This document shows, in pieces, positions 553-15,760 of a DNA stretch of 64,000 nucleotides. Source of the stretch: Mycobacterium sp. Root265 (GTDB lineage Bacteria > Actinomycetota > Actinomycetes > Mycobacteriales > Mycobacteriaceae); contig NZ_LMJA01000031.1 in NCBI RefSeq assembly GCF_001428895.1, positions 377,975-441,974 on the forward strand, read 5' to 3'. Under the pieces are notes generated by a model that was not told where the DNA came from, made no database searches, and saw only the letters and a list, made by a program, of their open reading frames with translations. Each line of letters begins with the position of its first letter. Position 1 is the stretch's first letter. A program made the translations under genes and the position numbers.

Positions 553-559
553 CGAGCGA

Positions 560-1588
560 TCAGCCCGCCCCGCTCAGCAACTGCAGTCCCTTGGCGATGA
601 GCGGGGCCACGGCATCGTCGGCTGCGTCCTCGGTGCCGTCGAGGGTGCGGCGCCGGTACGCGATGCCCGCCGCGATGATGGCCACTTTGAAGTAACCGGC
701 CGCCAGGTGAAATTCCCAGTGCTGCAGGTCCCGTCCGGATGTCAGCGCATAGCGCTGAGCCATATCCTCGGCGCTCGGCATCCGGGGTGAGGTCCACGCA
801 GCATCGGCGCCGATCACGAGATTAAAAACCGGCTCGCGGTAAACACACATCAATGCAGCGTCAGCCAGCGGATCACCCAGCGTTGACATCTCCCAATCCA
901 CCACTGCACGAACACGATGCGGTGCGCCATTTTCCAGGATGGTGTTGTCAATCCGGTAGTCGCCGTGCACGATTGAGGTATCGCTCTGGACAGGAACAGA
1001 CTCTGCCAGCAACTGGTGCAACTTGTGTACCTCGGCGTCGCGCGAATCATCGGGATGACGTACCAGGTCCCATTGTCCTGACCACCGCCGAATCTGCCGT
1101 TGCAGGTAGCCGTCGCGTCGACCGAAGTCCCCCAGTCCGACGCTGTCGGGGTCAACGGCATGCAGCGATGCCAGCACGTCTACCAACCCGTAAGCACAAT
1201 CGCGAACTGCCGAATCGGTGTCAATGATTGCCAGTTCGGCACTGGTGCGGATCACCTGGCCCATTACATACTCCACCACAGCGAAGGGTGCGCCCAGTAC
1301 CGAGTCGTCTTCGCACAGGGTGACCGGACGTGCCACCGGTATTCCGGTGTCGGACAGCGCCTGGACCACCCGATACTCTCTGCCCATGTCGTGTGCTGAC
1401 GGTGTCACGCCCTGAAGCGGCCGTCGTCGCAGCACCCAGGTCGACTTATCGTCGAAAATCAGGAATGTCAGATTGGAACGTCCACCGGAGATCAGTTCGC
1501 TGCGCAGCGGGCCGGTCTGGGCGACACCGATGTCATCGAAGTGGCGGGCGAGTGCCTCAAGGTCCAAAGCTTCTGCAGTCGTGGTCAT
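560..1588 (-). CDS. Phosphotransferase family protein (APH/ACAD10-like kinase fold)
   Basis: This 342-residue protein has the aminoglycoside-phosphotransferase/kinase fold. It has a glycine-rich N-lobe loop (GGRSNLTF, about residues 35-42), the catalytic HGD motif at about 208-210 with Asn215, and the metal-binding DWE at about 231-233 (VVDWEMSTLGDP). Proteins of this subfamily commonly sit beside acyl-CoA dehydrogenases and are related to the N-terminal domain of human ACAD10, so a role in phosphorylating a hydroxyacyl intermediate is plausible but inferred. Antibiotic resistance is less likely given the context. The gene follows the acyl-CoA ligase with a 1-bp gap, so the two are almost certainly co-transcribed. 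Confidence 0.85.
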   Translation of the reverse strand: MTTTAEALDLEALARHFDDIGVAQTGPLRSELISGGRSNLTFLIFDDKSTWVLRRRPLQGVTPSAHDMGREYRVVQALSDTGIPVARPVTLCEDDSVLGAPFAVVEYVMGQVIRTSAELAIIDTDSAVRDCAYGLVDVLASLHAVDPDSVGLGDFGRRDGYLQRQIRRWSGQWDLVRHPDDSRDAEVHKLHQLLAESVPVQSDTSIVHGDYRIDNTILENGAPHRVRAVVDWEMSTLGDPLADAALMCVYREPVFNLVIGADAAWTSPRMPSAEDMAQRYALTSGRDLQHWEFHLAAGYFKVAIIAAGIAYRRRTLDGTEDAADDAVAPLIAKGLQLLSGAG

Positions 1589-1589
1589 C

Positions 1590-3203
1590 TCATGCCTTTC
1601 GGAGGTCAGTTTTACGCACCTTTCCAGATGCAGTGCGGGGTAGACGATCGGTCAGTCGAAGCTCTTCGGGCCATTTCGGTTTCGCCATGCCCGATGCGGC
1701 GAGGTGGTCGACGAGGGTTGCCAACGTGACGTGGTGATGCGGCGCCGGGACCACAAATGCGACGGCTCGTTCCCCCGTGCGGTCATCAGGAACGCCCACG
1801 ACCGCCACCTCGGCCACCGACGGCGCGGTCAGCAACACGTTTTCCACTTCGGCCGGTGCGATGTTAACCCCATTGCGAATGATCAAGTCTTTACGTCGGT
1901 CGGTCACTGCCAGTCGACCGTTAGCGTCGAGCACACCGACGTCCCCGCTGTCCAGCCAGCCCTCCCGGTCGAAGGCGACATTCGATTCCGCCTCTAGGTA
2001 ACCCGCACACCGATCGGGGCCACGCGTGAAGATCATTCCTTCGGTGCCCGCCGGCAACACCGCGCCGGTCCGATCGCGGATCTCGACTTCCACGCCGGCT
2101 AAGAGACGGCCATCGGTACGCGCCAGTGCACCCTTCTCGTCGGTCAGTGCGCTGGCGCTCACCGTGGGGTGTTCGGTCAGTCCATAGGATCGCAGAACCG
2201 TCAATCCGCGAGATGCCGCTTTGGTAACCAGCGTTTCGGGAACCACGGACCCCCCGAGAATCACATACCGCATGCGCTCGGCTAACTCATCGGTGAAACG
2301 GGGATGATCAATGAGCGCGGACAGAAACACCGACGCTCCCCCGCCCGGGGCCAACCCTTCAGCGTGGGCCGTGTCGAGCAAGAAGTCGACGTCAAAAGAA
2401 TCGATGAGATTGATCGGTTCGCCGCGGTGTATCGGGGCCAACAGCCCCAGGGTCATTCCAGCAGCATGGGCAACAGGAGACGCCATGATCTGCGGGGTCG
2501 CCCCACCGGGAACCATTGCCGTGAGGTGGTGTCGCACCTCTGCGCCTAGCGTGCGGTGGGTGTGCACGACGGCTTTGGCGACTCCACTGGTGCCGGACGT
2601 GAGCGCCATCAGGCACGCATCGTCCGGCGCGCGCCGCACTGCCCCTGCCGACGGCGCTGCCAGAAGTTCTTCGAAGGCGACCAGCTTCTCGCCAGAAACT
2701 TCGTCCGGGCGCAGGACGCCACACGTCACCACGGAACCTACCGTCGGCATGTCTTTCAGCGACCCGCGGACCTCGTCGAGATAATCCCGTCCGCGATGCG
2801 ATACACACGTGACAATTGTGATGGCCTGCACCGTGCAGGCAGCGTGAACGAGATCTTTGCGTCCGTAGAACGATGCGATGGGAACGACGACCGCCCCGGC
2901 AATCACAGAGCCCACGAAAGCGACCAGCGTCTCCCACCCGTTGGGCAACCACAGCACTACCGGATCGCCCGGGCGGACACCGCGAGCAATCAATCCCGCG
3001 GCGAACCGCCTCGCCGCATCGTCCAGCGTCGCAAAAGTTTCGCTGCGCCGGACACGGTTGTTCCACAGTGTGATTCGCTGCCGCGGGCGTCGCCGCAGAC
3101 CGGCCATGAGGATGTCGCCGAGAGTCAGATTGTCCCATAGACCCTCGCGTAGGTACCGGCGCCGCAGACCGGGCGGTATCGGTGAGCTAGCAACAGTCCG
3201 CAT
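1590..3203 (-). CDS. AMP-forming acyl-CoA synthetase/ligase
   Basis: This 537-residue adenylate-forming enzyme would activate a carboxylic acid to its CoA thioester via an acyl-AMP. Visible landmarks are the P-loop-like TSGTSGVAKAVVHTHR, the YGLTEH motif, the hinge region GWLDSGDVGVLD followed by DRRKDLIIRNGVNIAPAEVE, and the C-terminal catalytic lysine motif PRTASGKVRK. The length is normal for the family. It lies downstream of the SDR and thiolase genes on the same strand after a 104-bp gap and would be the entry step of this local beta-oxidation set. Chain length and substrate are not determinable by reading. Confidence 0.9.
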   Translation of the reverse strand: MRTVASSPIPPGLRRRYLREGLWDNLTLGDILMAGLRRRPRQRITLWNNRVRRSETFATLDDAARRFAAGLIARGVRPGDPVVLWLPNGWETLVAFVGSVIAGAVVVPIASFYGRKDLVHAACTVQAITIVTCVSHRGRDYLDEVRGSLKDMPTVGSVVTCGVLRPDEVSGEKLVAFEELLAAPSAGAVRRAPDDACLMALTSGTSGVAKAVVHTHRTLGAEVRHHLTAMVPGGATPQIMASPVAHAAGMTLGLLAPIHRGEPINLIDSFDVDFLLDTAHAEGLAPGGGASVFLSALIDHPRFTDELAERMRYVILGGSVVPETLVTKAASRGLTVLRSYGLTEHPTVSASALTDEKGALARTDGRLLAGVEVEIRDRTGAVLPAGTEGMIFTRGPDRCAGYLEAESNVAFDREGWLDSGDVGVLDANGRLAVTDRRKDLIIRNGVNIAPAEVENVLLTAPSVAEVAVVGVPDDRTGERAVAFVVPAPHHHVTLATLVDHLAASGMAKPKWPEELRLTDRLPRTASGKVRKTDLRKA

Positions 3204-3307
3204 CAGCCCTCCGATCTACCCTCTACCCGTTCAGTACGTTGTCGGCCGCCCTCCGATATGCCTGGCCAGCGGCCGGACCCGGCCACACACGGCTCTGTTG
3301 CCGTGTC

Positions 3308-4081
3308 TTACTTCGGTGCGAAGCGTTGCGCCCCGTCCAGCCGGAGGACCTCGCCGTTGACGTACCGATTGCCGAGAAGAAAGACCGCCGCGTCGGCAAA
3401 CTCTTCCGGGGATCCCAGGCGCTTCGGGAAGGGAACGCTGACGGCGAATTTGGCCAGAGCTTCTTCCCCCACAGACTCCATAATCGGCGTCTTCATGGTG
3501 CCCGGTGCGATCGAATTGACCCGCACACCAACGGCGCTGAGGTCACGAGCCGCGGCCAGAGTCAGCCCTACTACACCCGCTTTGGCCACAGCGTATGCGG
3601 CCTGCCCGATCTGTCCCTCGTAGGCGGCGATCGATGACGTCAGCACGACTGCGCCGCGTTCGCCATCCGGCTCGGGCTCAGCCGAGGCGATCGCTGCCGC
3701 CGACAGCCGCAGCAGATTGAACGTCCCGTTGAGATACACATCGATAGTGGACCGGTAGGCGTCGAAATCGGCGGCTGCTCCGTCGCGGCCGACGATTCTC
3801 TGGGCCACGCCTGGGCCGCCGTGGGCTACCACTGCATAGCGCAGCGGTGCCAGCTCGATGGCCGCGGCGATCGCGGCCTCGATGCTGTCGGCATCGGTGA
3901 CATCGGTGGGTGCGAAAACCGCTCGCTCTCCGAGCTCGGACACCAGCGATTGACCGCGATCCTCGGCCAGGTCGCAGATCACGACAGCCAGTCCTTCTGC
4001 GTGCAGCCGGCGCGCGGTGGCGGCACCCAAGCCCCCAACCCCACCGCTGACCAACACCGATGATCGTGTGTTCACTCCCAT
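3308..4081 (-). CDS. SDR family oxidoreductase
   Basis: This is a 257-residue classical short-chain dehydrogenase. The N-terminal nucleotide-binding motif is SGGVGGLG (about 12-19) and the catalytic Ser/Tyr/Lys set is visible as LTSSIAAYEG then YAVAKAG. The C-terminus (VNGEVLRLDGAQ) resembles 3-hydroxyacyl-CoA dehydrogenases of the SDR type rather than sugar dehydrogenases. In this cluster its probable job is NAD(P)-dependent oxidation of a 3-hydroxyacyl-CoA before thiolysis. It lies 30 bp downstream of the thiolase gene, so they share a transcript. The substrate is inferred only from context. Confidence 0.87.
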   Translation of the reverse strand: MGVNTRSSVLVSGGVGGLGAATARRLHAEGLAVVICDLAEDRGQSLVSELGERAVFAPTDVTDADSIEAAIAAAIELAPLRYAVVAHGGPGVAQRIVGRDGAAADFDAYRSTIDVYLNGTFNLLRLSAAAIASAEPEPDGERGAVVLTSSIAAYEGQIGQAAYAVAKAGVVGLTLAAARDLSAVGVRVNSIAPGTMKTPIMESVGEEALAKFAVSVPFPKRLGSPEEFADAAVFLLGNRYVNGEVLRLDGAQRFAPK

Positions 4082-4111
4082 TGCAGCCAGATTCCTTTCA
4101 TATCGGCGCGG

Positions 4112-5284
4112 CTACGAAAGGCGTTCGTAGATGGTCGCGTTGGCGGTGCCGCCGCCTTCGCACATGGTTTGCAAACCGAACCGGCCGCCGGTCCGCTGCA
4201 AATGGTGGATCAGTGTGGTGGCTAGGCGGGCGCCTGAGCACCCCAGAGGGTGACCAAGCGCGATAGCACCGCCGACGGGGTTGAGCTTGTCGAGCGGGGC
4301 ACCGACTGCGGCTTGCCAGGCCAGTGGAACCGAAGCGAAGGCCTCGTTGACCTCAAAGGCGTCGATGTCCTCAATCGACAGCCCCGAGCGCTTCAGTGCC
4401 AGCGCAGTAGCAGGTATCGGCCCAGTCAGCATCTTCACCGGATCATCGCCCGTGACGACCGCGGTGTGCACGCGCGCCAGCGGATCCAACCCCAAGCTGG
4501 CTGCCCGTTCAGAAGTCGTCACGATGACACCGGCCGCGCCGTCGGAGATTTGTGAGCTGTTGCCGGCGCTGATCTTGCCGTCAGCCAGGAACGGTGTCTT
4601 GAGCTTGCCCAAAGACTCCAAATTCGACTCGCGCCGCACCCCCTCATCGGCGACGATGTGCGAATCCTGAGCCGGCACAGCGACGATCTCATCATCGAAT
4701 GCACCCTCGTCTTGTGCCTTGGCGGCGCGCTCGTGCGACAGCAACGCGTACTCGTCGAGTTGGCCGCGGGTGAAGCCGTACTCCTTGGCGATCAGTTCTG
4801 CACCCGCGCCTTGGTTGAAGCGGCCGTTGAATCCCGGACCGGTCAGCGCCGAGGCATAGCGGTCGACAGCGCTTCCGCCCATCTCCCCGGTGCCTTCGAC
4901 GTAGGCCGCGGTCATCGGCACCCCCGACATCATTTCCACTCCGCCGGCGATCACGACGTCGGCCTGTCCGGAGATCACAGCTGCCGCTGCCGTTGAAATA
5001 GCCTGCTGAGAAGATCCGCACTGACGGTCGAGAGTAAATCCGGGAATGCTTTCCGGCCAACCGGCCGCCAGCACTGCCATCCTGCCGACATTGCCGGACT
5101 GCTGTCCGATGCTTATCACGTTGCCCCAGTGCACGTCGTCGACGACGAGTGGATCGATCCCACTGCGGCTGGCAAGTTCACGCAGGATCACCGCCGAGAG
5201 ATCGACGGCATGGACATCCTTGAGGCCGCCGTTGCGGCGACCGATAGGGGTCCTGGCAGCTGCCACGATGACCGCATCACGCAT
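4112..5284 (-). CDS. Thiolase family protein (acetyl-CoA acyltransferase)
   Basis: This 390-residue thiolase has the nucleophilic cysteine in DRQCGSSQQA (about Cys89), the GHPLGCSGAR box with the catalytic His (about 345), and the C-terminal CEGGGTANATIYE with the second cysteine (about 375). Length and motifs fit a degradative thiolase that splits 3-ketoacyl-CoA into a shortened acyl-CoA and acetyl-CoA or propionyl-CoA. It is the first gene of the minus-strand unit thiolase-SDR-ligase-kinase. It diverges from the acyl-CoA dehydrogenase gene across 133 bp containing a clear palindrome. Confidence 0.92.
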   Translation of the reverse strand: MRDAVIVAAARTPIGRRNGGLKDVHAVDLSAVILRELASRSGIDPLVVDDVHWGNVISIGQQSGNVGRMAVLAAGWPESIPGFTLDRQCGSSQQAISTAAAAVISGQADVVIAGGVEMMSGVPMTAAYVEGTGEMGGSAVDRYASALTGPGFNGRFNQGAGAELIAKEYGFTRGQLDEYALLSHERAAKAQDEGAFDDEIVAVPAQDSHIVADEGVRRESNLESLGKLKTPFLADGKISAGNSSQISDGAAGVIVTTSERAASLGLDPLARVHTAVVTGDDPVKMLTGPIPATALALKRSGLSIEDIDAFEVNEAFASVPLAWQAAVGAPLDKLNPVGGAIALGHPLGCSGARLATTLIHHLQRTGGRFGLQTMCEGGGTANATIYERLS

Positions 5285-5343
5285 CTACTTCTCCTTGTGC
5301 TCATATCGCGAGAACGCGCGTTCAGACGATTGCGTACAGGCCG

Positions 5344-5359
5344 ACTATACACGTATAGT
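5344..5359. promoter_or_regulatory. Palindromic operator candidate between divergent beta-oxidation operons
   Basis: The sequence ACTATAC-AC-GTATAGT is a perfect 7-bp inverted repeat with a 2-bp spacer. It lies 59 bp before the acyl-CoA dehydrogenase start and 59 bp before the divergent thiolase start, midway in the promoter region. Size and location suit a dimeric TetR- or GntR-type repressor controlling both operons. It does not match the KstR or KstR2 consensus as I know them, and no regulator gene is adjacent in the window. Confidence 0.6.
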
Positions 5360-5417
5360 TTGGTGACATTCAGCGGATTTCCCGCAAGGACAAGGACGTC
5401 GAAAGAGAAGTGCCTTC

Positions 5418-6566
5418 ATGCGACGCGACATCTTCGAACCTGAGCACGACGACTTCCGGGCTACAGCCCGATCGTTTTATGAGGCGGTATGCGTCCCGCA
5501 CACCGACGAGTGGGAGCAGCGGGGTTACGTCGACAGAGATGCGTGGTTGGAAGCCGGCAAACTCGGCTTGATCGGCTGGGAACTGCCCGAGCAGTATGGC
5601 GGCGCAGCGATCCACGACTTCCGGTTCAACGCGATCATGACCGAGGAGTTCCACGCGACAGGAGCAGTCGGTATTGGGTTAGGAGTTCAGAACGACATCG
5701 TCGCCGGCTACATGAACAACCTGACCACCGACGAACAGAAGGATCGCTGGCTGCCCAGATACATCACCGGCGAGCTGATCAGCGCTATCGCGATGAGCGA
5801 ACCCGGAGCGGGATCTGATCTGGCAAAGATCTCGACGTCCGCGCGACGCGATGGCGACGACTTCATCGTCAACGGATCCAAGACCTTCATTTCCAACGGA
5901 TTGCTCGCCGATCTTGTCATCGTCGTCTGTCGCACCGACCCCGAAGCCTCTGCGCCGCACAAAGGCATCAGCCTGCTCGTGGTCGAAGCCGGCATGGAGG
6001 GTTTCACTCGCGGCCGCAAGCTCGACAAAATCGGCCAAAAGTCTGCTGATACAGCAGAACTCATATTTGACGAGGTTCGGGTGCCCGCTGCGAACCTGCT
6101 CGGGCAGCTCAATAGAGGCTTCTACCATCTGATGACCAACTTGCCCGCGGAACGTCTGGGTATCGCCATCCACGCTGCGGCGCAGGCGCGCCGAGCTCTG
6201 CACCTGTCCATCGAATACGCTCGCGACCGTATGGCATTCGGCCAGCCCATCGGTACCTTCCAGGTTAATCGCCACGCTCTCGCCCAGATGGCCACCGAGG
6301 TCGATGTCCTCCAGACCTACGTGGACAAAGCCATCATGGCCGTCAATGCCGGCGATCTCACCGCCGACGAAGCAGCAGGTGCCAAATGGTGGGCCACCGA
6401 GACACAATGGCGGATCGTCGACCGCTGCCTGCAGCTGCACGGCGGATACGGCTATGTCAACGAATACGAGATCGCCCGCCTGTGGCGAGATGCCCGTGTG
6501 CAGCGAATCTACGGCGGCACCAACGAGATCATGCTCGACATCGTCGGCCGCGGAATGGGCTTCTAG
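5418..6566 (+). CDS. Acyl-CoA dehydrogenase
   Basis: This 382-residue FAD-dependent acyl-CoA dehydrogenase has SEPGAGSDL in the FAD/substrate region, the AFGQPIGTFQ and LQLHGGYGY signatures and the C-terminal IYGGTNEI. The Glu of the medium-chain YEGT motif is Gly here. As in LCAD and isovaleryl-CoA dehydrogenases, the catalytic base is probably the Glu in PAERLGI (about Glu245). It would perform the first oxidation of the acyl-CoA made by the neighbouring ligase, passing electrons to ETF. It is the first gene of the plus-strand unit that continues into crotonase and SDR genes. Confidence 0.92.
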   Translation: MRRDIFEPEHDDFRATARSFYEAVCVPHTDEWEQRGYVDRDAWLEAGKLGLIGWELPEQYGGAAIHDFRFNAIMTEEFHATGAVGIGLGVQNDIVAGYMNNLTTDEQKDRWLPRYITGELISAIAMSEPGAGSDLAKISTSARRDGDDFIVNGSKTFISNGLLADLVIVVCRTDPEASAPHKGISLLVVEAGMEGFTRGRKLDKIGQKSADTAELIFDEVRVPAANLLGQLNRGFYHLMTNLPAERLGIAIHAAAQARRALHLSIEYARDRMAFGQPIGTFQVNRHALAQMATEVDVLQTYVDKAIMAVNAGDLTADEAAGAKWWATETQWRIVDRCLQLHGGYGYVNEYEIARLWRDARVQRIYGGTNEIMLDIVGRGMGF

Positions 6567-6596
6567 CTCGGATCACGTCGACGGGGTGAGCATTCA

Positions 6597-6902
6597 ATGA
6601 CGATCGACATCGGCTCGAACCTTGCGTGGGCACTGGCAGACCAATGCAGACCCGCGATGCGCCAAGGCGAGCGAAATATGTTGTTCGCCATGCTCGGAGC
6701 GGGCGACTACGACGCAGCGATCTCTGTTTCGATCGCGGTTATCCGGCGCCGTGATATCGATCTGCAAGCCGATCTACAGAAGCGCCTCAGGGCCTGGCAA
6801 ACCCGGTCAGCCGATGTTGCAGCTTCGCACCCAATTCCACGGTTCGAGCCAAGACGGCGCCCGACGACCGCACCCACGAACAAGGCTCTGCAAGGAGATC
6901 TC
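6597..6902 (+). other. In-frame coding segment ahead of the crotonase gene (102 codons, no stop)
   Basis: An ATG at 6597, preceded by a GGGGTGAG ribosome-binding-like stretch, opens 102 codons that run without a stop into the crotonase ATG at 6903. The translation is a compact helical-looking segment (QGERNMLFAMLGAGDYDAAI, then IDLQADLQKRLRAW) followed by a Pro/Arg-rich linker, and it resembles real protein rather than noise. It may be an N-terminal domain fused to the crotonase, or a remnant of a small gene that lost its stop. I do not recognise the domain. Confidence 0.4.
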
Positions 6903-7694
6903 ATGCCCGCCAAGGACAGCCCACCGGAAGATTTTTCGAGTGACGTCCTCACCGAACGACGCGGCAGGGTCCTCATCATCACGATCAACAGACCTCACGC
7001 CAAGAACGCCGTCAACGGCGCAGTCAGCCGCGGCATCGCCGACGCCATGGACGAACTGGACGGTGATCCGCTTCTTTCGGTGGGCATACTCACGGGCGCA
7101 GGTGGAACCTTCTGCGCAGGAATGGATCTCAAGGCCTTCTCCAGAGGAGAAGAGATAGCCATACCCGGCCGGGGCATGGGCTTCACTCAGAACCCACCAG
7201 CTAAACCCGTCATCGCCGCGGTCGAAGGCTACGCCCTCGCAGGCGGCACCGAGATGGCGCTCGCGACAGACCTCATAGTCGCTTCGACCGAGGCCCAGTT
7301 CGGTGTCCCCGAGGTCAAACGCGGTCTGGTTGCTGGTGGCGGCGCCCTTTTGCGATTGCCTCGTCGTATCCCGTACCAGATAGCCGTCGAGCTGGCGCTA
7401 ACCGGGAAAAGCCTGGATGCGGCACGCGCTCATGAACTTGGCCTCGTCAACCACCTGGCTCAACCCGGCACTGCGTTAGCGGTGGCACTCGATCTGGCTG
7501 CGGAGATCACGGCGAACGGGCCGCTCGCGATCGTGGCTACAAAGAAGATCATCTCCGAATCCGATAGCTGGTCTCCCGCCGAGTCGTGGCAGCGACAAGA
7601 GGAGATCTGTATCCCGGTTTTCGCATCCAACGATGCGCGCGAAGGTGCCCAAGCGTTCGCCGAGAAACGTCCACCCTCCTGGACCGGGAGTTAG
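6903..7694 (+). CDS. Enoyl-CoA hydratase/isomerase (crotonase) family protein
   Basis: This 263-residue crotonase has the oxyanion-hole segments GAGGTFCAGMDLKAF and GYALAGGTEMALATD, and the active-site GVPEVKRGLVAGGG with the conserved Glu. The ATG at 6903 was chosen because of the strong AAGGAGATCTC ribosome-binding site just upstream and because it gives the usual family length. An in-frame start at 6597 would add 102 residues. It is predicted to hydrate the enoyl-CoA made by the dehydrogenase 336 bp upstream. The SDR gene follows after 6 bp, so the genes are co-expressed. Confidence 0.87.
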   Translation: MPAKDSPPEDFSSDVLTERRGRVLIITINRPHAKNAVNGAVSRGIADAMDELDGDPLLSVGILTGAGGTFCAGMDLKAFSRGEEIAIPGRGMGFTQNPPAKPVIAAVEGYALAGGTEMALATDLIVASTEAQFGVPEVKRGLVAGGGALLRLPRRIPYQIAVELALTGKSLDAARAHELGLVNHLAQPGTALAVALDLAAEITANGPLAIVATKKIISESDSWSPAESWQRQEEICIPVFASNDAREGAQAFAEKRPPSWTGS

Positions 7695-7700
7695 ACGCCG

Positions 7701-8465
7701 ATGTCAGTGCTCGACGGTTTCCGCCTCGACGATCGTGTAGCGGTAGTTACCGGCGCTTCCTCGGGATTAGGCGTTGCCTTCGCCACCGCCTTGGCAGAGG
7801 CCGGCGCGGATGTCGTGCTCGCTGCGCGACGTACCACCGAGCTGGGCGCGGTGGCCGAGGAAATCGGCAAAAGTACTGGTCGACAGGCATTAGCGGTCAC
7901 AGTCGATATCGCCGACCCTGAGCAGTGCACAAGACTTATCAATGCTGCGGTCGAACAGTTGGGCCGAGTCGACATACTCGTCAACAACGCGGGCGTCGGA
8001 ACCGCTGTATCCGCAATGAAGGAAACACCCGAACAGTTCCGCTCCGTGATCGATACCAACCTCAACGGCACGTACTGGTTGTGCCAAGCTGCCGCGCGCC
8101 AAATGGGCGCCGGGGCGACCATAATCAATATTGCAAGCGTCCTGGGGATCACGACCGCGGGATTACCCCAGGCCGCATACTCAGCGAGTAAGGCGGCTGT
8201 CATCGGACTAACCCGCGATCTTGCGCAACAGTGGGCAGCGCGCCGAGGAATCCGCGTCAACGCCATCGCACCCGGGTACGTCGAGACGGAGATGACGTCA
8301 GTTTATGACGAGTCCAAACTGGAGAATTTTGCGCAGCGCACGGTGATTAAGCGGCTCGGCACACCGAACGAGATTGCTGCGACACTAGTGTGGCTTGCTT
8401 CAGATGCCGCGAGTTACGTACATGGACAGACGATATGTGTAGACGGTGGATTCACCATCACCTGA
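7701..8465 (+). CDS. SDR family oxidoreductase (FabG-like)
   Basis: This 254-residue short-chain dehydrogenase has TGASSGLG at the N-terminus, the NNAGVG motif, the catalytic YSASKAA and a FabG-like C-terminus (YVHGQTICVDGGFTIT). It probably oxidises a 3-hydroxyacyl-CoA, or reduces the corresponding ketone, as part of the local acyl-CoA pathway. It is the second SDR in the cluster. It ends the plus-strand operon and converges on the cysteine-rich gene across 64 bp containing only a weak CTCCG/CGGAG inverted repeat. Confidence 0.87.
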   Translation: MSVLDGFRLDDRVAVVTGASSGLGVAFATALAEAGADVVLAARRTTELGAVAEEIGKSTGRQALAVTVDIADPEQCTRLINAAVEQLGRVDILVNNAGVGTAVSAMKETPEQFRSVIDTNLNGTYWLCQAAARQMGAGATIINIASVLGITTAGLPQAAYSASKAAVIGLTRDLAQQWAARRGIRVNAIAPGYVETEMTSVYDESKLENFAQRTVIKRLGTPNEIAATLVWLASDAASYVHGQTICVDGGFTIT

Positions 8466-8529
8466 CCGAATTCTCTATGTCGGCTGTGTCTACCCCGGAG
8501 CTCCGCTGCTGTGCACGGAGAGCCCGAGC

Positions 8530-9666
8530 CTAAGCGCCGTCGAGCCCTTTCAGCTCCTCGCGGATGCGCTCGGCTTCACGCTCAGCCTGCATAAGCCTCG
8601 CCTGCATGCGTTCCCGCGGTGACCTCTGCTTGCGCGGTCGCGGCGGAGGCGGAACTAACCACCCCAGAGGTTCAAAGGCGACAATCTTCCGCACGACCGG
8701 ACATAGATCGCAATCTCGGTATCTTCCCAACGCGGGCCAACCGGCTTCAAGCATCTTGTCTACGAACTGATCTCTGCAATCCTCGTCCTCGTAGCGCGCC
8801 CTCAACTCGGCCAGGCGCTCCGGGGTGACCCGCTGCCGGATTTCTTCCGGCTTCCAGTTGACGTCCCGCAATCCGACACTGACGGGGTGACCGCAGGTCA
8901 ACGTCGCGTCCCAATCATGGATCCAACCAGGCTCCTTGCGTCGACGTCGATCCCACCACTCTTGGCCGAGATCGACGCAATAGTCTGGGCAGTCGACCGG
9001 ATCCGCTTCCACGTACCGGCGTGTAAAGCCGTCCCATGAGGCAAAGTCGCGCAGCGGAAATGACACATTCTCGTGCTCACCCGAACACCGGTACTGCCCT
9101 GGCGGCAACCTCCGTCCCGTAGACACGTCTGTGTCTGAGTGGTCAAGAAGGATTTGCGGGTCGTCGCTTCTACTGAGCCGCTCCCTCGTGCAGCCACAAT
9201 CAAACGCGACTCGCCACCGAAAGATATCCTCGGCCTCGCCGTACCAGACGCTCCACATCGGGTTCTCCGCGACCTTCGCCTGCCATTCGGCTAACACCTC
9301 CTCGTTCGGGCGTGACTGGCCGGCGATTTCTCTGCGGACCAAGCCGTTCGGCGGCCGAGCAGTAGCGGAACGCCGCGTGCGCGTCTGCCGGTCACGGGCG
9401 CGCCCCTCGGCGAAGGCGTCGGCTACGACCCGACCCTGCTCAGGGGTCACCGGGCCGGCCTCAACGATGTTCTGGTGGAGTCGCTCTTGGGAGTCGCACG
9501 CACTCTTTGCGAGGTCGATCGTGTCGTAGATGCGGTCTCCACGGAAGTGCCGTGGGGCGCTCATCACCCGGAACGCGTGACGCTTCGGACGGTCCGGCGC
9601 TGCGACCTTCTGCAGCGCGTAGACCCCCGACACCCAGTAGTCAGGCTGTTCCATTGTCCAGTCCAT
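8530..9666 (-). CDS. Uncharacterised cysteine-rich protein with C-terminal coiled coil
   Basis: I do not recognise this 378-residue protein. It carries two similar Cys/His modules: CGC at 157-159 with C194 and H197, and CGH at 257-259 with C319-x2-C322. A further C226-x3-C230 pair lies between them. These look like zinc-binding units. The C-terminus (about 350-376) is a charged, Arg/Glu-rich likely coiled coil preceded by a polyproline stretch. There is no signal peptide or membrane segment. The start is supported by GGAGG 4 bp before the ATG. It lies on the island, divergent from a small XRE regulator across 141 bp containing a palindrome, so it may be controlled by that regulator. Function unknown. 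Confidence 0.7.
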   Translation of the reverse strand: MDWTMEQPDYWVSGVYALQKVAAPDRPKRHAFRVMSAPRHFRGDRIYDTIDLAKSACDSQERLHQNIVEAGPVTPEQGRVVADAFAEGRARDRQTRTRRSATARPPNGLVRREIAGQSRPNEEVLAEWQAKVAENPMWSVWYGEAEDIFRWRVAFDCGCTRERLSRSDDPQILLDHSDTDVSTGRRLPPGQYRCSGEHENVSFPLRDFASWDGFTRRYVEADPVDCPDYCVDLGQEWWDRRRRKEPGWIHDWDATLTCGHPVSVGLRDVNWKPEEIRQRVTPERLAELRARYEDEDCRDQFVDKMLEAGWPALGRYRDCDLCPVVRKIVAFEPLGWLVPPPPRPRKQRSPRERMQARLMQAEREAERIREELKGLDGA

Positions 9667-9753
9667 GCACCCTCCAGTGCGGCCTTACTACTCGCGTCCA
9701 GTCCACTCATCCGTTCCGTCACCAGCACGGGGCGGCAACGAGGTACCCGGATG

Positions 9754-9771
9754 CTACTTATAAGTATGTAG
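9754..9771. promoter_or_regulatory. Palindromic operator candidate for the XRE regulator
   Basis: The sequence TACTTATAAGTA (9755-9766) is a perfect 12-bp palindrome, nested in a looser CTAC...GTAG pair (9754-9771). It stands out as AT-rich in the GC-rich gap between the divergent cysteine-rich gene and the XRE gene, 42 bp before the ATG of the latter. The arrangement is typical of an autoregulated Cro/C-protein-type controller. Confidence 0.55.
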
Positions 9772-9807
9772 ACCTTCAAGTAGCGGCGCGGAAACGTGGG
9801 CGCCGTT

Positions 9808-10026
9808 ATGGAGGGTCAGCTTCAACAGGTCGTGGGCCGCAACCTACGCCGGCACCGCCTGGAGCAGGGCTACAGCCAGGAAGCGTTCGCGGAGCGGATG
9901 GGTGTCCACCGAACGTACTTCAGCTCAGTCGAGCGCGGCGAGCGCAATCTAACTCTTCAAACACTGGAGAAGATCGCGGAGTTTCTGGGGGTTGATCCCC
10001 GGACGTTGCTGGACGAGCGCAAATAG
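9808..10026 (+). CDS. Small XRE-family helix-turn-helix regulator
   Basis: This protein is about 72 residues from ATG 9808, or 76 if the in-frame GTG at 9796 is used. It consists of little more than one Cro/CI-type HTH domain: RNLRRHRLEQGYSQEAFAER, then GVHRTYFSSVERGERNLTL and a C-terminal helix ending LGVDPRTLLDERK. Single-domain proteins of this size and sequence style resemble the controller (C) proteins of restriction-modification and other defence islands. It lies between the cysteine-rich gene and the qat operon and likely represses or activates from the adjacent palindrome. Targets are inferred. Confidence 0.85.
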   Translation: MEGQLQQVVGRNLRRHRLEQGYSQEAFAERMGVHRTYFSSVERGERNLTLQTLEKIAEFLGVDPRTLLDERK

Positions 10027-10231
10027 ACGCACCGACGATGCCCTAATCCGACGTGCTCCGTACGCCCAGCTTCTCCGGTTTGTTGGGACTCGACCCAGAC
10101 TTAGCCAATCGGCTTAATAGTTCCCGGATCTCCGCCGACATCATCGACATCGACAGCGATCCCGCCGAGTCGGACTACTCCGGGGACACGCAAGACTGCC
10201 TACACACAGGGGTCCGCTGCACTCGAGTGGG

Positions 10232-10981
10232 TCAACTCGCCGCCCCACTGCCGGTTGCTAACAGCCGCTGAAAGTTCTGCTGAATCCGCGAATCCACCTC
10301 GGAGCGATCAACATTCCAAATATTCGAAAGAGGGCCGTAGGCCGCGCCCACCTCCCAGGGATGCAACGGACCGGCTTTTCCCCGGGCAAATGGGCCGTCG
10401 GATTCAGTCACTATCCGGTCCCATGGCATTCGAGCGACCAGTCGACGTCCGTTGCTGGTGGCGACCATCGCGGGTCCAACGCTGAACCAACAACCCAGCT
10501 CAATCGCAGCCTCTAGATCCCTAACACCACCGGTGTACCAGTGCAACACAGGAGTGCCCAACCCAGGGAACTGCCGAATCGCATCGATGACCTCGTGACC
10601 CGCGTGCCTGCTGTGCACAGACAGAAGGCGCCCACCGACATCCGCACATCGTCGAAGTACGTGGCGAAAAACTTCAAGCTGTTTCGACTGAGTCGCTGCG
10701 AATCGACTGCTACCGTCTAGTCCAACTTCGCCCACGTACTGAGTCGATGCAATCAAGTCGTCAAACAGCGACAGCTCATGAGATCTCAGGTGAGCCAGTT
10801 CTGGATGCAGTCCGAGCGCCGTACGGATCATCGACTTGCCAGCACCCAGCGCACGTGTCCCAGCGAAAGCGGAGGGTGTCGTGGTGACCGAAAGGGTTGC
10901 GACGCTGAAGCTTTGCGTGTGTTCAACGACCTCAGATGGGTTATCGTACAAATCCAGATGGCAGTGGAAGTCGACCATCAT
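10232..10981 (-). CDS. qatD: QatD: TatD-family metal-dependent nuclease of the Qat defence system
   Basis: This 249-residue TatD-like TIM-barrel hydrolase retains the metal ligands: DFHCHLD (His6, His8), GEVGLD (Glu85), SVHSRHAG (His123), LHWYTGG (His147) and ESDGPF (Asp195). TatD enzymes are Mg-dependent DNases. The gene overlaps the end of qatC by one base (TGATG) and is the last of four genes whose order and families match the QatABCD anti-phage system described by Gao and colleagues in 2020. It is divergent from housekeeping TatD proteins in length and composition, so the defence assignment rests on the operon. The effector role is known family information, not seen here. Confidence 0.88.
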   Translation of the reverse strand: MMVDFHCHLDLYDNPSEVVEHTQSFSVATLSVTTTPSAFAGTRALGAGKSMIRTALGLHPELAHLRSHELSLFDDLIASTQYVGEVGLDGSSRFAATQSKQLEVFRHVLRRCADVGGRLLSVHSRHAGHEVIDAIRQFPGLGTPVLHWYTGGVRDLEAAIELGCWFSVGPAMVATSNGRRLVARMPWDRIVTESDGPFARGKAGPLHPWEVGAAYGPLSNIWNVDRSEVDSRIQQNFQRLLATGSGAAS

Positions 10982-12270
10982 CAGCCGACGCCATAGCTGT
11001 CGTGTAGCGCTCCTAGTTCACCCATGGCACGCGACAGCATATCTCGGGTCGGCGCCTTGTCGTCGCTCGGCACCGAGCTAAGTGCGGTTCCAAGCCATCG
11101 CGCTAACCCCTCGTCGGCTATCACTAGGCGCGCAACTGCCAACGACCGCACATCATCAAAGCCCGCGCAATGTTCAGTTTGAGCGCCAAGGTTCTCAAAA
11201 ACGTAACCAGTCAAATCTGGCTCCGGCCAACGCAAAAAGGCAGCACGTCGCACCTGACACGGAATACATCTGCCACAGTGAGTGTATCCGTACCGCTGGT
11301 ATCGGCCGCAGCTGGTGCTCCTGCGCGCGAGTTGCCGGAGAAGCTCCTGATTCGCGCAGTTAGCAAGCATCTCGCCTTTGGTCTGGAACTTGTATGGGTT
11401 AGATAGTCTCACCCTGATATCCATGGCATCAAAAACCTGTTGCAACAAGCGGAAATACAGCGGATGCGCAGTCCGGGTACTGAGACTCCCCACTCTCATC
11501 GGTGTCATTGCCGGATTGATTGCAATGAAGCCATTCTCATTCACAAAAAGCTCAACAGTTCGCCCTTCAGCTGTCGCAGCAAGGGTGGACGCCACTAGCA
11601 CCCCGTACGCAATGAACACGAGCGATCGTGAACGCTGCGAGGCCTCATCTACAGCCTGGCCGGTTCGTGCGTTGTGGTTCAGCTGGATATGTTCTGAAAC
11701 CCCCACCTCGGCCGCAAACTCCTCCTGAGCGCGTCGGTCTCCCCGCACTGTCTGGCTTACTAAATAGGGTCGGCGACCATCTGACACTAGGTCGATTGCG
11801 CCAATGAGGCTATCTAATCCACCCGAAAGCATTGCAACGCAATCATTTTCTGGCACTACCGGGTGCTTGGCGGGTTGACTATGAGGAGTCCCCTTGCTAA
11901 AACGCAAAGTCCATATGTCCGTTGTAAGAAACGACAATGCCGCCTCTAATGCAGGGGCATTCGCAGACCATCTCGCAGGGTCTGACACCGGTATTTCTAG
12001 CGTCAACTCCCGCGTCCAGCCGTCCGGGCTGTGCGCTCGTAAACTCGCCGCGTCCACAAGAATTGCCGACATCGCAATTGACAGAAAGTCCCAGGCGATC
12101 GTAGACGGGGCGAGCTGCTTGCGCCTGATTGAACTGAGAACGGCTCCGCCTACCGACATTTCAATGCCGCTACTCGGCTGACCATAGAGCGAGAAGGGCA
12201 CGTATTCATCCGCTCGCCTGACACCGCCATCGGCGGCTGGCTCCAGATCGATAATCGCACGAAACTTCAT
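10981..12270 (-). CDS. qatC: QatC: QueC-like ATP-pyrophosphatase of the Qat defence system
   Basis: This 429-residue protein has the PP-loop motif SGGLDS (149-154) and a C-terminal four-cysteine zinc site (C321-x10-C332-x2-C335-x2-C338). Both are features of QueC, the 7-cyano-7-deazaguanine synthase. An extra N-terminal domain of about 140 residues distinguishes it from housekeeping QueC (roughly 230 residues) and fits QatC. It may modify a protein or nucleotide with a deazaguanine-like chemistry; the substrate is not known to me. It overlaps qatB by 4 bp and qatD by 1 bp, showing translational coupling. Confidence 0.9.
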   Translation of the reverse strand: MKFRAIIDLEPAADGGVRRADEYVPFSLYGQPSSGIEMSVGGAVLSSIRRKQLAPSTIAWDFLSIAMSAILVDAASLRAHSPDGWTRELTLEIPVSDPARWSANAPALEAALSFLTTDIWTLRFSKGTPHSQPAKHPVVPENDCVAMLSGGLDSLIGAIDLVSDGRRPYLVSQTVRGDRRAQEEFAAEVGVSEHIQLNHNARTGQAVDEASQRSRSLVFIAYGVLVASTLAATAEGRTVELFVNENGFIAINPAMTPMRVGSLSTRTAHPLYFRLLQQVFDAMDIRVRLSNPYKFQTKGEMLANCANQELLRQLARRSTSCGRYQRYGYTHCGRCIPCQVRRAAFLRWPEPDLTGYVFENLGAQTEHCAGFDDVRSLAVARLVIADEGLARWLGTALSSVPSDDKAPTRDMLSRAMGELGALHDSYGVG

Positions 12271-13100
12271 AGAGCGTAGCTTTCGAACACTGTGAAAGTA
12301 TCAGCGAGCGCTTGACGCACGGTGCCCCCTACCGATCGACTAGTCAAACTAAGGCCTTGCTCGCGAAGCCGGCGAAATGACTGAGCTACAACCTCACGGA
12401 TGTAGCTTCGCACCTGTTTAAGTCTCGCTAGTCCCGTTACTTTGTCAGGCGCTCTAGACAAAATATGCTTGCCGACGTCTAGACAAAATCTCCTGAAGAC
12501 ATCCTCGGCGGTGTATCGCTCAACTGCGAACTCCCGTTGCTGGTCCGTCAACGAGAGCAGATCTGCCTCAGGATATTGGTGGAGCAAGTCGGACAACGCT
12601 GTTCGCACTGCCTCTCGCGATGATTCCGCGTCGAGGGTTCCGTCGTGCGGACGAACAGCCTCGACGACAGCGTCCATAATCTCGTCTGCTGACCTCCCGG
12701 CCAATAGATCGATGCCTAGAGCTTGAGCAGCCGACTCCGGGTTGAGCGCGCGGGAGAGGGCAGACGCTGTTGACCCCGTCCGCCCCATTCGACGGGTTAG
12801 CGTAGACGCTCCGGCGTAGCCCTGGGACACATAGGAAGCCACTCCCGACCGAAGTCGCTCAGTGTCCCCAGTTCGAGAGAAGTGCCCCAGACTTGTTCGT
12901 GCAGAGGCAAATCTCCTCGGAGGCGCAACTGGTACGCCATAGTTCGGCTCACTGCCGGCAACGTCGTCAGAGGTTTCGCCAGAATCCTCCTCAACACTAT
13001 CGGAGTCAGCGGACTCCGCGCTTCCGTCCAGCGGCGATGCCCAAGGTGGCACGAGCGCGGTGCCAGAGTTCGGCCCGCTGCTGCTTTGCGAAGTCCCCAA
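12267..13100 (-). CDS. qatB: QatB: Qat defence-system structural/adaptor protein
   Basis: This 277-residue protein begins MGTSQSSSGPNSGTALVPPW. That Ser/Gly/Pro-rich opening is characteristic of QatB proteins. An acidic disordered stretch (about 28-50) follows, then an Ala/Leu-rich helical body. It has no catalytic motif, signal peptide or membrane segment. It starts 3 bp after the qatA stop and overlaps qatC by 4 bp. QatB is thought to be the partner or target of QatC in the system; that is family knowledge, not visible in the sequence. Confidence 0.85.
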   Translation of the reverse strand: MGTSQSSSGPNSGTALVPPWASPLDGSAESADSDSVEEDSGETSDDVAGSEPNYGVPVAPPRRFASARTSLGHFSRTGDTERLRSGVASYVSQGYAGASTLTRRMGRTGSTASALSRALNPESAAQALGIDLLAGRSADEIMDAVVEAVRPHDGTLDAESSREAVRTALSDLLHQYPEADLLSLTDQQREFAVERYTAEDVFRRFCLDVGKHILSRAPDKVTGLARLKQVRSYIREVVAQSFRRLREQGLSLTSRSVGGTVRQALADTFTVFESYAL

Positions 13101-13103
13101 CTC

Positions 13104-14966
13104 TTAGTCCATCTTCATTGCGGCAGCCACTGGAGCAGATACGTTGTTACTGGACCAAGCTTTGAACAGATCCTTTGCCCAGGGTTCATCGGCGATTTTG
13201 GGCACAATGTCAGGTTGGATCTGAGATGCTGGCCGATCGCCGAGGAAACCTGAAAGCCGTTTCGCGATACCATCGTTTGCGCGTGCCAGCACAAGCAATG
13301 CCTCCAGGATCGCCGGTGTTCCCCATACCTCCTCACGACGGGCCTGATCGAGCAGACGGCCCATGATGGTGTTCAGTTCGACCGCCGCTAGCTGTGTTAC
13401 GTCGTCCGTGAGTTGACTTGCAACTTCTGGCGAATCGAGTAGCGCCGACAGAATCTCGGAAGCCCGGGACGAAAGACCATCCTCAGGTGTAATGACAGGG
13501 AGGTGTTCGCGGCTTACATATAGCGCGCCACGTAAATCGAGATCTCCGAGTGCTGGCCGGAGGTTCAACCAGTCTCGTACGAAATCGTTATCCCAAAGAC
13601 CATCTAGATCGAACGGCTTATCGGCAGGTCGGTTCTCCCAGGTCGCAATGACAGACGGTCGACCGCCGGGGTCTTTGATTATCGCGGTCGCCAGCTCGGC
13701 GTACAGCCCATCGGGGGCAAGACGTTCGAACAGCATCAACTTGGCGAGAACTGCCTCATCAACACTGACGCCTTGTGTGCGCGATACCGTCATCCGGATC
13801 GAGAGCGCGTTGAGAAATCTCTTGATCAATCGGGGGTTGCCAGCGATCCCGCTGCCATTCGTCATGATTGGGCCCAATCGGTCTGCAGTATCCAGCTGTA
13901 GCACAAGGTCCGCCGGCAACTCGATGTTCAGCGACTCCACGAACATGCGATCGATTCGTTTGCCCTGCCAGCTCTCTCGCAGGCGCGTTATTATTGCCTC
14001 GCGAATGGCTTCTTTGTTATCTGCCGACAGGCTACTTGCGTGTACGAAAAGCAAAAACATATACGCTCGTACTTCTTGAGTTCCCAGCTGCGGAACTCTT
14101 ATAGGTATTTGAATAAGCTTATCGAAATAGTTGATAACAAGCGATTCATCGGGATTATCAAAATGTCTTCGTACTGCGTGTTTAATCATCTGGTCATCGG
14201 CTGCAATGACGAATGCGGTGCCTTCGAGGAATAGAAAGAGTCGAATCGCTTCGAGCGTTGAGACTGCAGTCTCAGGCATGCATCGATCCAAATCGTCGAT
14301 CAGGACAACTAGCGTTACGCCTAGTTCCTCCAACGCTTTCTCGAAGGAATACCGAAGTTCGGCGATCTTCTCCCGTGCGGACTCTCCGCGCTGTTGCGCA
14401 CGTGGCTTCACAAGACCTTTTGCGGTATCGATACCCTGCTCTACCAGTGCTTGACCATCTTCAATTACCTCGGAGTCAGCGCCAGAATCTCGTACACGCT
14501 TAATGAGGTTCGCGGCCTGGCCCAGCATTCCCACTGGAGGGAGTCCGAGTGCCAGGGCGACGGCGGATCCCGCGGTTAAACTTGCTGCCCTGAACCAGTC
14601 GATGCTCTTCAAGAAGTCTTGCGTCTTTTGGATGCCCGTTTTGCGGTCAACCGCAAGTTCAGCTAACTTCACCGCGATCGACTCCATGAGGGCTGCACGC
14701 GCATCGTCGTATCCCTGATAGAGCCACGCATTGAAATCGACAAATATGTACTTTTCTCGGTCTTCAGCATCATCAGCACTCGGCGCCTGCCGGCTCGCTA
14801 GTGCCTGTTTAGTCAGCTTAATCATTGAAGACTTACCCGCGCCCCACGGACCTGATACGCCGATCGATAGCGGCTTTCCGTCGGCCTGTACGATTAATTC
14901 TGCGACTGACTCCGCGACGCCACTGAAGTTGACATAGTCAATTTCAGTTTCATTATCTAGCCACAC
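13104..14966 (-). CDS. qatA: QatA: KAP-family P-loop NTPase of the Qat defence system
   Basis: This is a 620-residue KAP NTPase. Its opening (TEIDYVNFSG) is followed by Walker A GPWGAGKS (about 39-46), a hydrophobic stretch at about 140-165 that could be a membrane insertion as in other KAP proteins, and Walker B LVVLIDDLDRC (about residues 217-227). I chose GTG at 14966 because GGAGG lies 8 bp upstream and the family conservation begins there; a TTG at 15053 in the same frame would add 29 unconserved residues. It is the first gene of qatA-qatB-qatC-qatD. The gene is visibly AT-rich: bases 14101-14160 are about one-third G+C, a sign of horizontal acquisition. Confidence 0.9.
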   Translation of the reverse strand: MWLDNETEIDYVNFSGVAESVAELIVQADGKPLSIGVSGPWGAGKSSMIKLTKQALASRQAPSADDAEDREKYIFVDFNAWLYQGYDDARAALMESIAVKLAELAVDRKTGIQKTQDFLKSIDWFRAASLTAGSAVALALGLPPVGMLGQAANLIKRVRDSGADSEVIEDGQALVEQGIDTAKGLVKPRAQQRGESAREKIAELRYSFEKALEELGVTLVVLIDDLDRCMPETAVSTLEAIRLFLFLEGTAFVIAADDQMIKHAVRRHFDNPDESLVINYFDKLIQIPIRVPQLGTQEVRAYMFLLFVHASSLSADNKEAIREAIITRLRESWQGKRIDRMFVESLNIELPADLVLQLDTADRLGPIMTNGSGIAGNPRLIKRFLNALSIRMTVSRTQGVSVDEAVLAKLMLFERLAPDGLYAELATAIIKDPGGRPSVIATWENRPADKPFDLDGLWDNDFVRDWLNLRPALGDLDLRGALYVSREHLPVITPEDGLSSRASEILSALLDSPEVASQLTDDVTQLAAVELNTIMGRLLDQARREEVWGTPAILEALLVLARANDGIAKRLSGFLGDRPASQIQPDIVPKIADEPWAKDLFKAWSSNNVSAPVAAAMKMD

Positions 14967-15715
14967 CGCAAGCGCCTCCGAATAGTTCGAGTGCAATAAG
15001 AGTTTCCGGGCAACAAAGTCATTAGGCGCGACGACCCCGCGGCACCTATGCAAATCGCCGAGAGCCTACCGATCATCCGGGCTTTCGGTATCAGGTTTGT
15101 TCTGACGTAAGACGTTCGACGGACAAGTCGGTCGGTAGGCGACCCACCGGATCAGCGCCTGGTCTCGCCTACACGGCCAACTGTCGCGCACCTCGACGAT
15201 TGCCACCAATAGACGGTCAGTTCGCGGCGCCGTCGGCCGCACAGTCCCGCGCGTGCAAACCTTCAAACCCCTGGTTGGTCGCGGCGAGTTGCCCGACGAG
15301 GTCCGGCGACCAGGGATCCGGCCGACAACCCTCCTCGAATGCGGGTCTGCGGCCACCGGAACGAGCGCGGACTACACGCCAAGTGGTGGCGCAGTGACCA
15401 GTTGAATGTCTATGAGCGGGCGCGGCATCGTCCCAACACATCGGTGGCGACTAGGGCGGTTGTCCGCTGAACCAATCGATTCCCAGTAGGACACCGCGGG
15501 CCATGAGTAGAGTAGGTCCGCCCTCGCTATTACTCCGCCGGCGGGCACCGCGGCAGGTAGATCTCAGACGAGCACCAGGCGTCCGCTTTCGGTGTCACGG
15601 TGTTGTCACAACGTGCGCAGACCTTCGCCTACAACGTCGGACGCTACTGGACACATCAGCCCAGGTAACAGCAGTCTACGAACACCGACGGAAGCTAGGG
15701 GACGCCTCGAATCGA
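14967..15715. other. Intergenic region upstream of qatA, up to the att site
   Basis: This stretch of about 750 bp contains the qat promoter region and then DNA in which I see no gene with a convincing product. Several short reading frames on both strands lack recognisable motifs and good ribosome-binding sites. No integrase, excisionase or transposase remnant is recognisable. It is the island's terminal segment next to the tRNA scar. Confidence 0.5.
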
Positions 15716-15760
15716 CTTCCCAAGCTGAATACGCGGGTTCGATTCCCGTCATCGGCTCCA
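15716..15760 (+). repeat. attachment-site scar: 3' half of tRNA-Gly(CCC)
   Basis: The segment reads as the 3' part of a tRNA: anticodon loop TTCCCAA (anticodon CCC), stem GCTGA, T-arm GCGGG-TTCGATT-CCCGT, 3' acceptor strand CATCGGC, then T-CCA ending at 15760. The 5' acceptor strand GCCGATG and a D-arm are absent upstream. The anticodon-stem complement is wrong (TCGAC instead of TCAGC), so the tRNA identity stops at about 15716. This is the pattern left at the distal end of an element integrated into the 3' end of a tRNA gene. Polarity says the element lies to the left. Confidence 0.8.

Follow-up and report, generated by a model that had tools for sequence, protein, structure and literature searches.

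An intact qatABCD operon in a Mycobacterium whose genome appears to lack a pathway to 7-carboxy-7-deazaguanine

The 64,000-nucleotide stretch of Mycobacterium sp. Root265 analysed here (contig NZ_LMJA01000031.1, positions 377,975 to 441,974 of the forward strand; hereafter, the window) carries at 10232-14966 an operon of the anti-phage system QatABCD, which is said to have been first described by Gao et al. in 2020. The genes lie in the order qatA-B-C-D on a single strand (minus), and all four frames are uninterrupted (Table 1). This operon is probably an intact, horizontally acquired Qat system in which the QatC enzyme of this organism uses a donor other than 7-carboxy-7-deazaguanine (CDG) made by the host. 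An original prediction from the sequence had described four overlapping minus-strand genes; their order and strand hold, but overlap is limited to qatB/qatC (4 nt) and qatC/qatD (1 nt), qatA and qatB being 3 nt apart. An alignment with six relatives supports the predicted qatA start, the GTG at 14966 and not the TTG at 15053 of the list of open reading frames. The G+C content is 0.55-0.58 over the qat genes and 0.64-0.68 immediately to their right.

The completeness of the operon, claimed in the same prediction, is borne out by the Qat models of PADLOC, which match all four proteins with most of each model covered (QatA 2.4e-145, QatB 1.3e-38, QatC 2.2e-94, and QatD 3.8e-86). Three proteins score above the cut-offs of their NCBIfam equivalogs: QatB with 140 bits (cut-off 100), QatC with 312.2 (280), and QatD with 308.5 (230). 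Pfam recognizes QatA as KAP_NTPase (4.4e-61), QatC as QueC (26.3 bits, cut-off 22), and QatD as TatD_DNase, and finds no match for QatB. Using phmmer, QatC matches the solved QatC chains 9zee_B (4e-50) and 9vlk_A (8.8e-49), and QatB matches the solved QatB chain 9zee_A (E 3.6e-13) in an alignment that begins at residue 1; a helical domain is predicted in QatB from this match only. QatC and QatD had been predicted to be distinct from the housekeeping enzymes, and so they appear. QatC as a housekeeping QueC was rejected: it scores 312 bits against the QatC equivalog versus 18 against the QueC equivalog, a quick tree places it among Qat proteins, and it is distant there from the canonical QueC of a relative in the genus (G037), with which pairwise BLAST gives E = 0.004. 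QatD as a housekeeping TatD was rejected on profile scores, with only 100.6 bits for TIGR00010 (cut-off 206) and its equivalog score above the cut-off. Judged by its genes, the window encodes an intact qatABCD with a predicted role in defence, a further member of a known anti-phage system.

The catalytic motifs expected in these proteins (GPWGAGKS, SGGLDS, the four-cysteine zinc site, and the TatD ligands) are all present, by sequence and in alignments. QatA keeps both its Walker A motif, GPWGAGKS, and its Walker B motif, VVLIDDLDRC. When QatC is aligned with seven plasmid relatives, the SGGxDS motif (S149-S154; SGGLDS here, x being variable), the zinc-motif cysteines C321, C332, C335, and C338, and the threonines T265 and T267 within STRTAHP are kept in 8/8 sequences; in the phmmer alignment, these threonines correspond to T278/T280 of chain 9zee_B. 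The N-terminus of QatB reads MGTSQSSSGPNSG...LVPPWA, and its MGTS is invariant in 6/6 aligned sequences. In QatD, the residues H6, H8, E85, H123, H147, and D195, which we take to be the TatD metal ligands, are invariant in 7/7.

The significance of these residues comes from work on other Qat systems. QatB and QatC form a complex that is sufficient against lambda; the ATP site of QatC, both of its threonines, and Gly2 of QatB are needed for defence, which is abolished when the threonines are changed to Tyr/Asp or to Ala (PMC13279940). QatC is thought to modify the N-terminal glycine of QatB, perhaps with CDG, as does its relative Cap9 of the type IV cyclic-oligonucleotide-based antiphage signalling system (PMC13279940, PMC13329287). 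Carboxydeazaguanylation of QatB has been proposed (PMC13329287), and the group that QatC attaches to QatB is presented as an open question in PMC13279940. Cap9 shares with QatC the QueC fold, a dependence on ATP, and a partner protein whose N-terminal glycine is involved; it keeps Tyr/Asp, however, and uses CDG, whereas in QatC the pair is Thr/Thr and both termini are extended (PMC13279940, PMC13329287). It is via Tyr/Asp that Cap9 and QueC bind the deazaguanine (PMC13279940), and the alignments place Thr/Thr in the QatC of the window instead of this Tyr/Asp pocket. The canonical QueC of G037 (L089:2495-3253) has the PP-loop and the four-cysteine motif in common with QatC, and the E. coli QatC cannot substitute for QueC (PMC13329287).

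The QatABCD of P. aeruginosa and E. coli resembles that of the window in gene order, in its four families, and in its MGTS tail, SGGxDS, T-x-T, and four zinc cysteines (PMC13279940); it differs in that its sequence is distant and that the window's host has no matches for the CDG pathway. The qat operon of the Deinococcus radiodurans plasmid pCP1 has the same gene order, with identities to the window of 50% for QatC, 44% for QatB, 49% for QatD, and 49% for QatA, but it is plasmid-borne and adjoins an Eco29kI-family endonuclease gene.

QueD and QueE convert the FolE product into CDG (PMC13329287). The window's genome, which is scored as 100% complete, has no match for QueD and, at E<=1e-3, no match for QueC with either PF06508 or TIGR00364. 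The PF06508 genome search also missed the genome's own QatC, although hmmscan reports it, so that the argument rests on the TIGR00364 result together with the lack of QueD. For QueE there is only one partial match of 21 bits, in a stretch of a 410-residue frame, which is read as another radical S-adenosylmethionine (radical-SAM) protein. These profile searches suggest that the host has no CDG pathway. The genome does encode a tRNA-guanine transglycosylase (TGT; G000:C30:109243-110388), and its presence without QueD or QueC suggests salvage of a queuosine precursor. In G037, by contrast, queC, queE, and queD are adjacent (L089:687-3253), on a contig that also carries the Qat locus at another place; the searches thus detect the pathway in the genus where it is present. 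A fourth gene in this row looks to be of the FolE2/QueF type.

The same question was put to other QatC-bearing genomes. The 59 genomes searched comprise those of 49 of the 66 QatC-like loci together with all 10 genus genomes with QatC; 17 loci, judged to be without a complete operon, were left out (L026, L049, L052, L053, L058, L059, L061, and L064-L073), and L059 was kept out even though all four of its genes were seen later. Inspection gave 54 complete operons, all of which match QatA, B, C, and D on re-checking, the stretch examined in genus genomes other than the window's own including only part of qatA. Five genomes were set aside as incomplete: G199, in which QatD was not found, G014, G043, G045, and G079, which has a QatA-like gene in a wider stretch and no QatB match. 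In the 54 operons, the start residue of QatB is followed by a tail beginning GTS in 52 cases and GTK in two (L057 and L063); QatC has T-x-T in 53, the other (L062) reading STRSTHP, and SGGxDS in all 54. QueE was scored as present at >=33 bits, a threshold of our own, matches of <=28 bits, which cover the middle of the profile, being ascribed to other members of the radical-SAM family. The searches for QueC and TGT took in 27 genomes, namely, the 26 negative for QueD and G037.

QueD was found in 33 of the 59 genomes and not in the other 26, and the QueE model gave some match in 42, many of them weak and partial. Some QueC match was obtained in 11 of the 27 genomes searched, four of them above the cut-off (G037, G200, G210, and G217) and seven at <=37 bits over the PP-loop; TGT is present in 19 of these 27. 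When only complete operons are counted, QueD is absent from 22/54 hosts (isolates 10/28, genus genomes 5/6, and metagenome assemblies 7/20), and QueD, QueE, and QueC are all without a match in 19/54 (seven isolates, five genus genomes, and seven metagenome assemblies). TGT is also absent from seven of these 19: two metagenome assemblies, none of the genus genomes, and five isolates, which are Agrococcus baldri, Agromyces sp. ISL-38, Mycobacterium palustre, Microbacterium gorillae, and Streptomyces sp. CNH099.

QatC occurs in 10/198 genomes of the genus and 12/396 of the phylum, part of the latter matches being weak. In the genus, QueD matches, again partly weak, occur in 32/198 genomes, that is, in 1/10 with QatC versus 31/188 others (Fisher p = 1.0), G037 being the sole genome with both. 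Ten further genomes of the phylum have a QatC match, five of them with QueD; among the four of these ten that have a GTS-tailed QatB, a T-x-T QatC, and a QatD, QueD is present in one host and absent from three, which were searched for QueD only. The trees made were quick trees. In a maximum-likelihood tree of 84 rows, the QatC of the window falls within a starred set of 11 that includes Sphingomonas, Paracoccus, Deinococcus, Thalassospira, Acidobacteriota, and others; G187 is the only genus member beside it, the remaining genus genomes standing at about four other places. Given this scatter, Qat seems to have entered the genus several times. In a QatC tree of 65 rows, of which every host was searched for QueD and 30 were negative, the QueD label needs 13 changes, at least nine of them forced by starred branches, which indicates that Qat has crossed repeatedly between QueD-positive and QueD-negative hosts.

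Selection on the genes can be judged from pairs of hosts. Between two QueD-negative hosts (G141 and G521), qatC has a ratio of non-synonymous to synonymous substitution rates (dN/dS) of 0.24 at dS 1.75, which points to purifying selection. Between the window and G187, the proportions of synonymous and non-synonymous differences in qatC are pS 0.79 and pN 0.38, and qatD has a dN/dS of 0.23 at dS 2.3, silent sites being saturated or nearly so; dN/dS for qatC and qatB is saturated in this pair.

The operon appears to have been acquired horizontally on an integrative island of ~71.7 kb, which extends from C28:321925 to window position 15760 and has Qat at its right edge. An island at a tRNA-Gly gene had been predicted; the repeat ends and an integrase uphold this, but the window itself has only a copy of the 3' part of the tRNA. 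An intact tRNA inside the window was rejected, since ARAGORN finds no tRNA there. A 38-nt piece of the tRNA-Gly gene, searched for in the genome with <=3 mismatches allowed, has two exact copies on the same strand (C28:321954-321991 and C28:393690-393727, the latter being window 15716-15753), and the identity of the two copies extends to 45 nt. The integrase is 44-45% identical to mycobacteriophage integrases among the best rows. No empty attachment site has been demonstrated in relatives: the seven loci with an orthologue-like right-flank gene (L107-L113) have no tRNA-Gly inside their ~1.5-kb flanks, one of them (G002) having a tRNA-Thr. Comparison with plasmids by megablast gave 14 records for 20 kb of the island and 13 for window 1-15700; the best ten of each match over short stretches only, <=14% of the query, which correspond for the most part to genes of the acyl-CoA and thiolase types.

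In the parts of the island examined, the cargo includes a DUF3987 protein and, within the window, lipid-degradation genes. The 378-residue protein encoded between these and qatD has no match in PADLOC, Pfam, or NCBIfam at E<=0.1, nor in PHROGs at E<=0.001. Near the left end, two proteins (L093:3809-5455 and L093:10164-10952) match PADLOC endonuclease-effector and SAVED_HNH models over their N-terminal ~110-150 residues, the remainder of each being without a PADLOC match.

Loci with less than the full operon also occur. In five QatC-like loci without matches for qatA or qatD (L052, L058, L064, L082, and L101), a small gene starting with [M/V]GTS directly precedes qatC, and in L100, a GTS-type start lies within the frame preceding qatC. 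No match for QatA or QatD was found in 16 kb of sequence surrounding each of L101 and L100 (L126 and L127), in L052, L058, and L064, or in the 3.8 kb of L082. Judging from their gene content, these loci are possibly QatBC systems that occur naturally with two genes only, which would fit the published sufficiency of QatBC against some phages. Other QatC-like loci (e.g., L061 and L065-L073) have neither a partner gene nor a GTS tail. The genome G045 has a divergent qat locus (G045:C1:2862000-2880000, L129) in which the QatA and QatC matches are each split over more than one frame, apparently by interruption.

Table 1. Features of the qatABCD locus, of the island that carries it, and of QatBC-type pairs elsewhere. 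Plain positions refer to the window.
Feature	Position	Strand	Description
qatA	13104..14966	minus	KAP-family P-loop NTPase, 620 residues, GTG start
qatB	12267..13100	minus	TTG start; probable QatC substrate protein; N-terminus MGTSQSSSGPNSGTALVPPWA, then a low-complexity tail, probably disordered
qatC	10981..12270	minus	QueC-like ATP-dependent enzyme; SGGLDS, T265/T267, four-cysteine zinc site
qatD	10232..10981	minus	TatD-family metal-dependent nuclease
378-residue protein	8530..9666	minus	Between qatD and the lipid genes, downstream of qatD
Small XRE-type helix-turn-helix regulator	9799..10026	plus	Convergent with the operon; Pfam HTH_3 4.4e-17; PHROGs regulators
attR-like right island end	15716..15760	plus	45-nt identical copy of the 3' part of tRNA-Gly(CCC)
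Intact tRNA-Gly(CCC), left island end	C28:321925-321998 (L093:1426)		71.7 kb left of the repeat, outside the window
Integrase	C28:326012-327199		Pfam Phage_integrase 1.3e-19; PHROGs integrase 1.7e-54; 4 kb inside the left end
GTS-protein and QatC-like pairs	L052:4121-6128; L058:4042-6206; L064:4057-6164; L082; L101 (G420; wider L126)

A mechanism may be proposed for the operon as follows. Removal of the methionine from the MGTS start of QatB would expose an N-terminal glycine. QatC, via its SGGLDS site and ATP, would activate a carboxylate donor for coupling to this glycine, thereby arming QatB. The QatB-QatC pair would form the core of the system, and the KAP NTPase QatA and the TatD nuclease QatD would broaden the range of phages. 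In the present host, the donor would not be CDG of the host's own making, since the pathway appears to be missing. It would most likely be other than that of Cap9 and more widely available, because intact operons of the same family occur in hosts with and without the CDG pathway; a donor of this kind agrees with the replacement of the deazaguanine pocket by Thr/Thr. Stated for QatC in general, a donor other than host-made CDG is, on balance, favoured.

Several observations weigh against this. QueD is, after all, present in 32 of the 54 genomes with a complete operon, and the lack of an association does not by itself exclude the use of CDG where CDG is present. Three genomes without a QueD match do have other pathway members (QueE and QueC in G200, QueC in G210 and G217), so that the QueD search may miss some pathways, or salvage may occur. 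The absences rest on profile searches of mostly draft genomes, and are weaker still for the metagenome assemblies, as which 20 of the 54 are counted, G242 being 1.1 Mb. Moreover, QueD-negative rows group strongly together on the tree (13 changes versus a mean of 21.9 after shuffling, with 0/500 shuffles as low), and the negatives are therefore not independent: they amount to several cases and not 30. CDG might also reach a host by way of a phage, or be made there from an imported precursor. Finally, the NCBIfam equivalog of QatA gives 440.8 bits, under its cut-off of 600.

One alternative is that QatC uses CDG just as Cap9 does and that, in hosts lacking QueD, the system is silent or is fed by scavenged CDG. 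The fold, ATP site, and Gly2 requirement that QatC and Cap9 have in common (PMC13279940) speak for it, as do the modification proposed for QatB (PMC13329287) and the number of hosts with QueD; of the 19 complete-operon hosts without the pathway, 12 encode a TGT, a hint that some 7-deazaguanine is salvaged. The published substitutions count against it, since defence is lost when the Thr/Thr of the pocket is turned into the Tyr/Asp of Cap9 (PMC13279940). TGT, too, is missing from the other seven genomes, and the operons, unbroken and under purifying selection in hosts in which no pathway was detected, argue against CDG. We know of no salvage route to CDG itself, which counts against scavenging, and this explanation is considered unlikely. 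It is much less likely that the operon is a decaying, functionless relic of the island. The rare GTG and TTG starts, the G+C content below that of the right flank, and the low QatA score would fit such a relic, but the four genes are without a frameshift or stop and keep their essential residues, and the comparison with G187, at silent sites saturated or nearly so, points the same way.

A further explanation is that, in actinobacteria without QueD, the phage supplies the CDG. Only phages producing 7-deazaguanines for use in their DNA would then arm Qat, which would thus sense them. QueD-like genes do exist among phages that infect Mycobacterium, Arthrobacter, and Microbacterium. The set FolE, QueD, QueE, and QueC is encoded by phage Rosebush, which carries dPreQ0, and M. 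smegmatis is said to be without the preQ0 pathway (PMC6884629); phage Vic9 has a similar gene set (PMC11772480). The QueD query, however, matched only 28 of 50,697 phage records at E<=1e-3, four of them from Mycobacterium phages, the query being a single bacterial QueD and therefore insensitive. To our knowledge, phages such as lambda and T4 have no genes for CDG, and E. coli is never without it, which counts against arming by the phage. When transferred to E. coli, the Qat of P. aeruginosa restricts several phages, among them lambda and T4 (PMC13279940). Supply by the phage is accordingly given very little weight here.

A donor other than host-made CDG thus remains the favoured reading. Within a limited literature search, no published statement of the argument from pathway-less Qat hosts was found; the main text of PMC13329287 mentions neither Actinobacteria nor mycobacteria, and QueD and QueE go unmentioned in PMC13279940. 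CDG is the simplest answer to the question of the QatC donor, and the intact Qat operons without matches for QueD, QueE, and QueC argue against it. A host that appears to lack the CDG pathway, such as the present one, makes this question easy and cheap to test. We lean towards the view that QatC acts as an acyl ligase on a protein N-terminus and takes as its donor, instead of CDG, an ordinary metabolite present in hosts without 7-deazaguanine metabolism, in which case the QueC fold would have been turned to a different protein modification in immunity.

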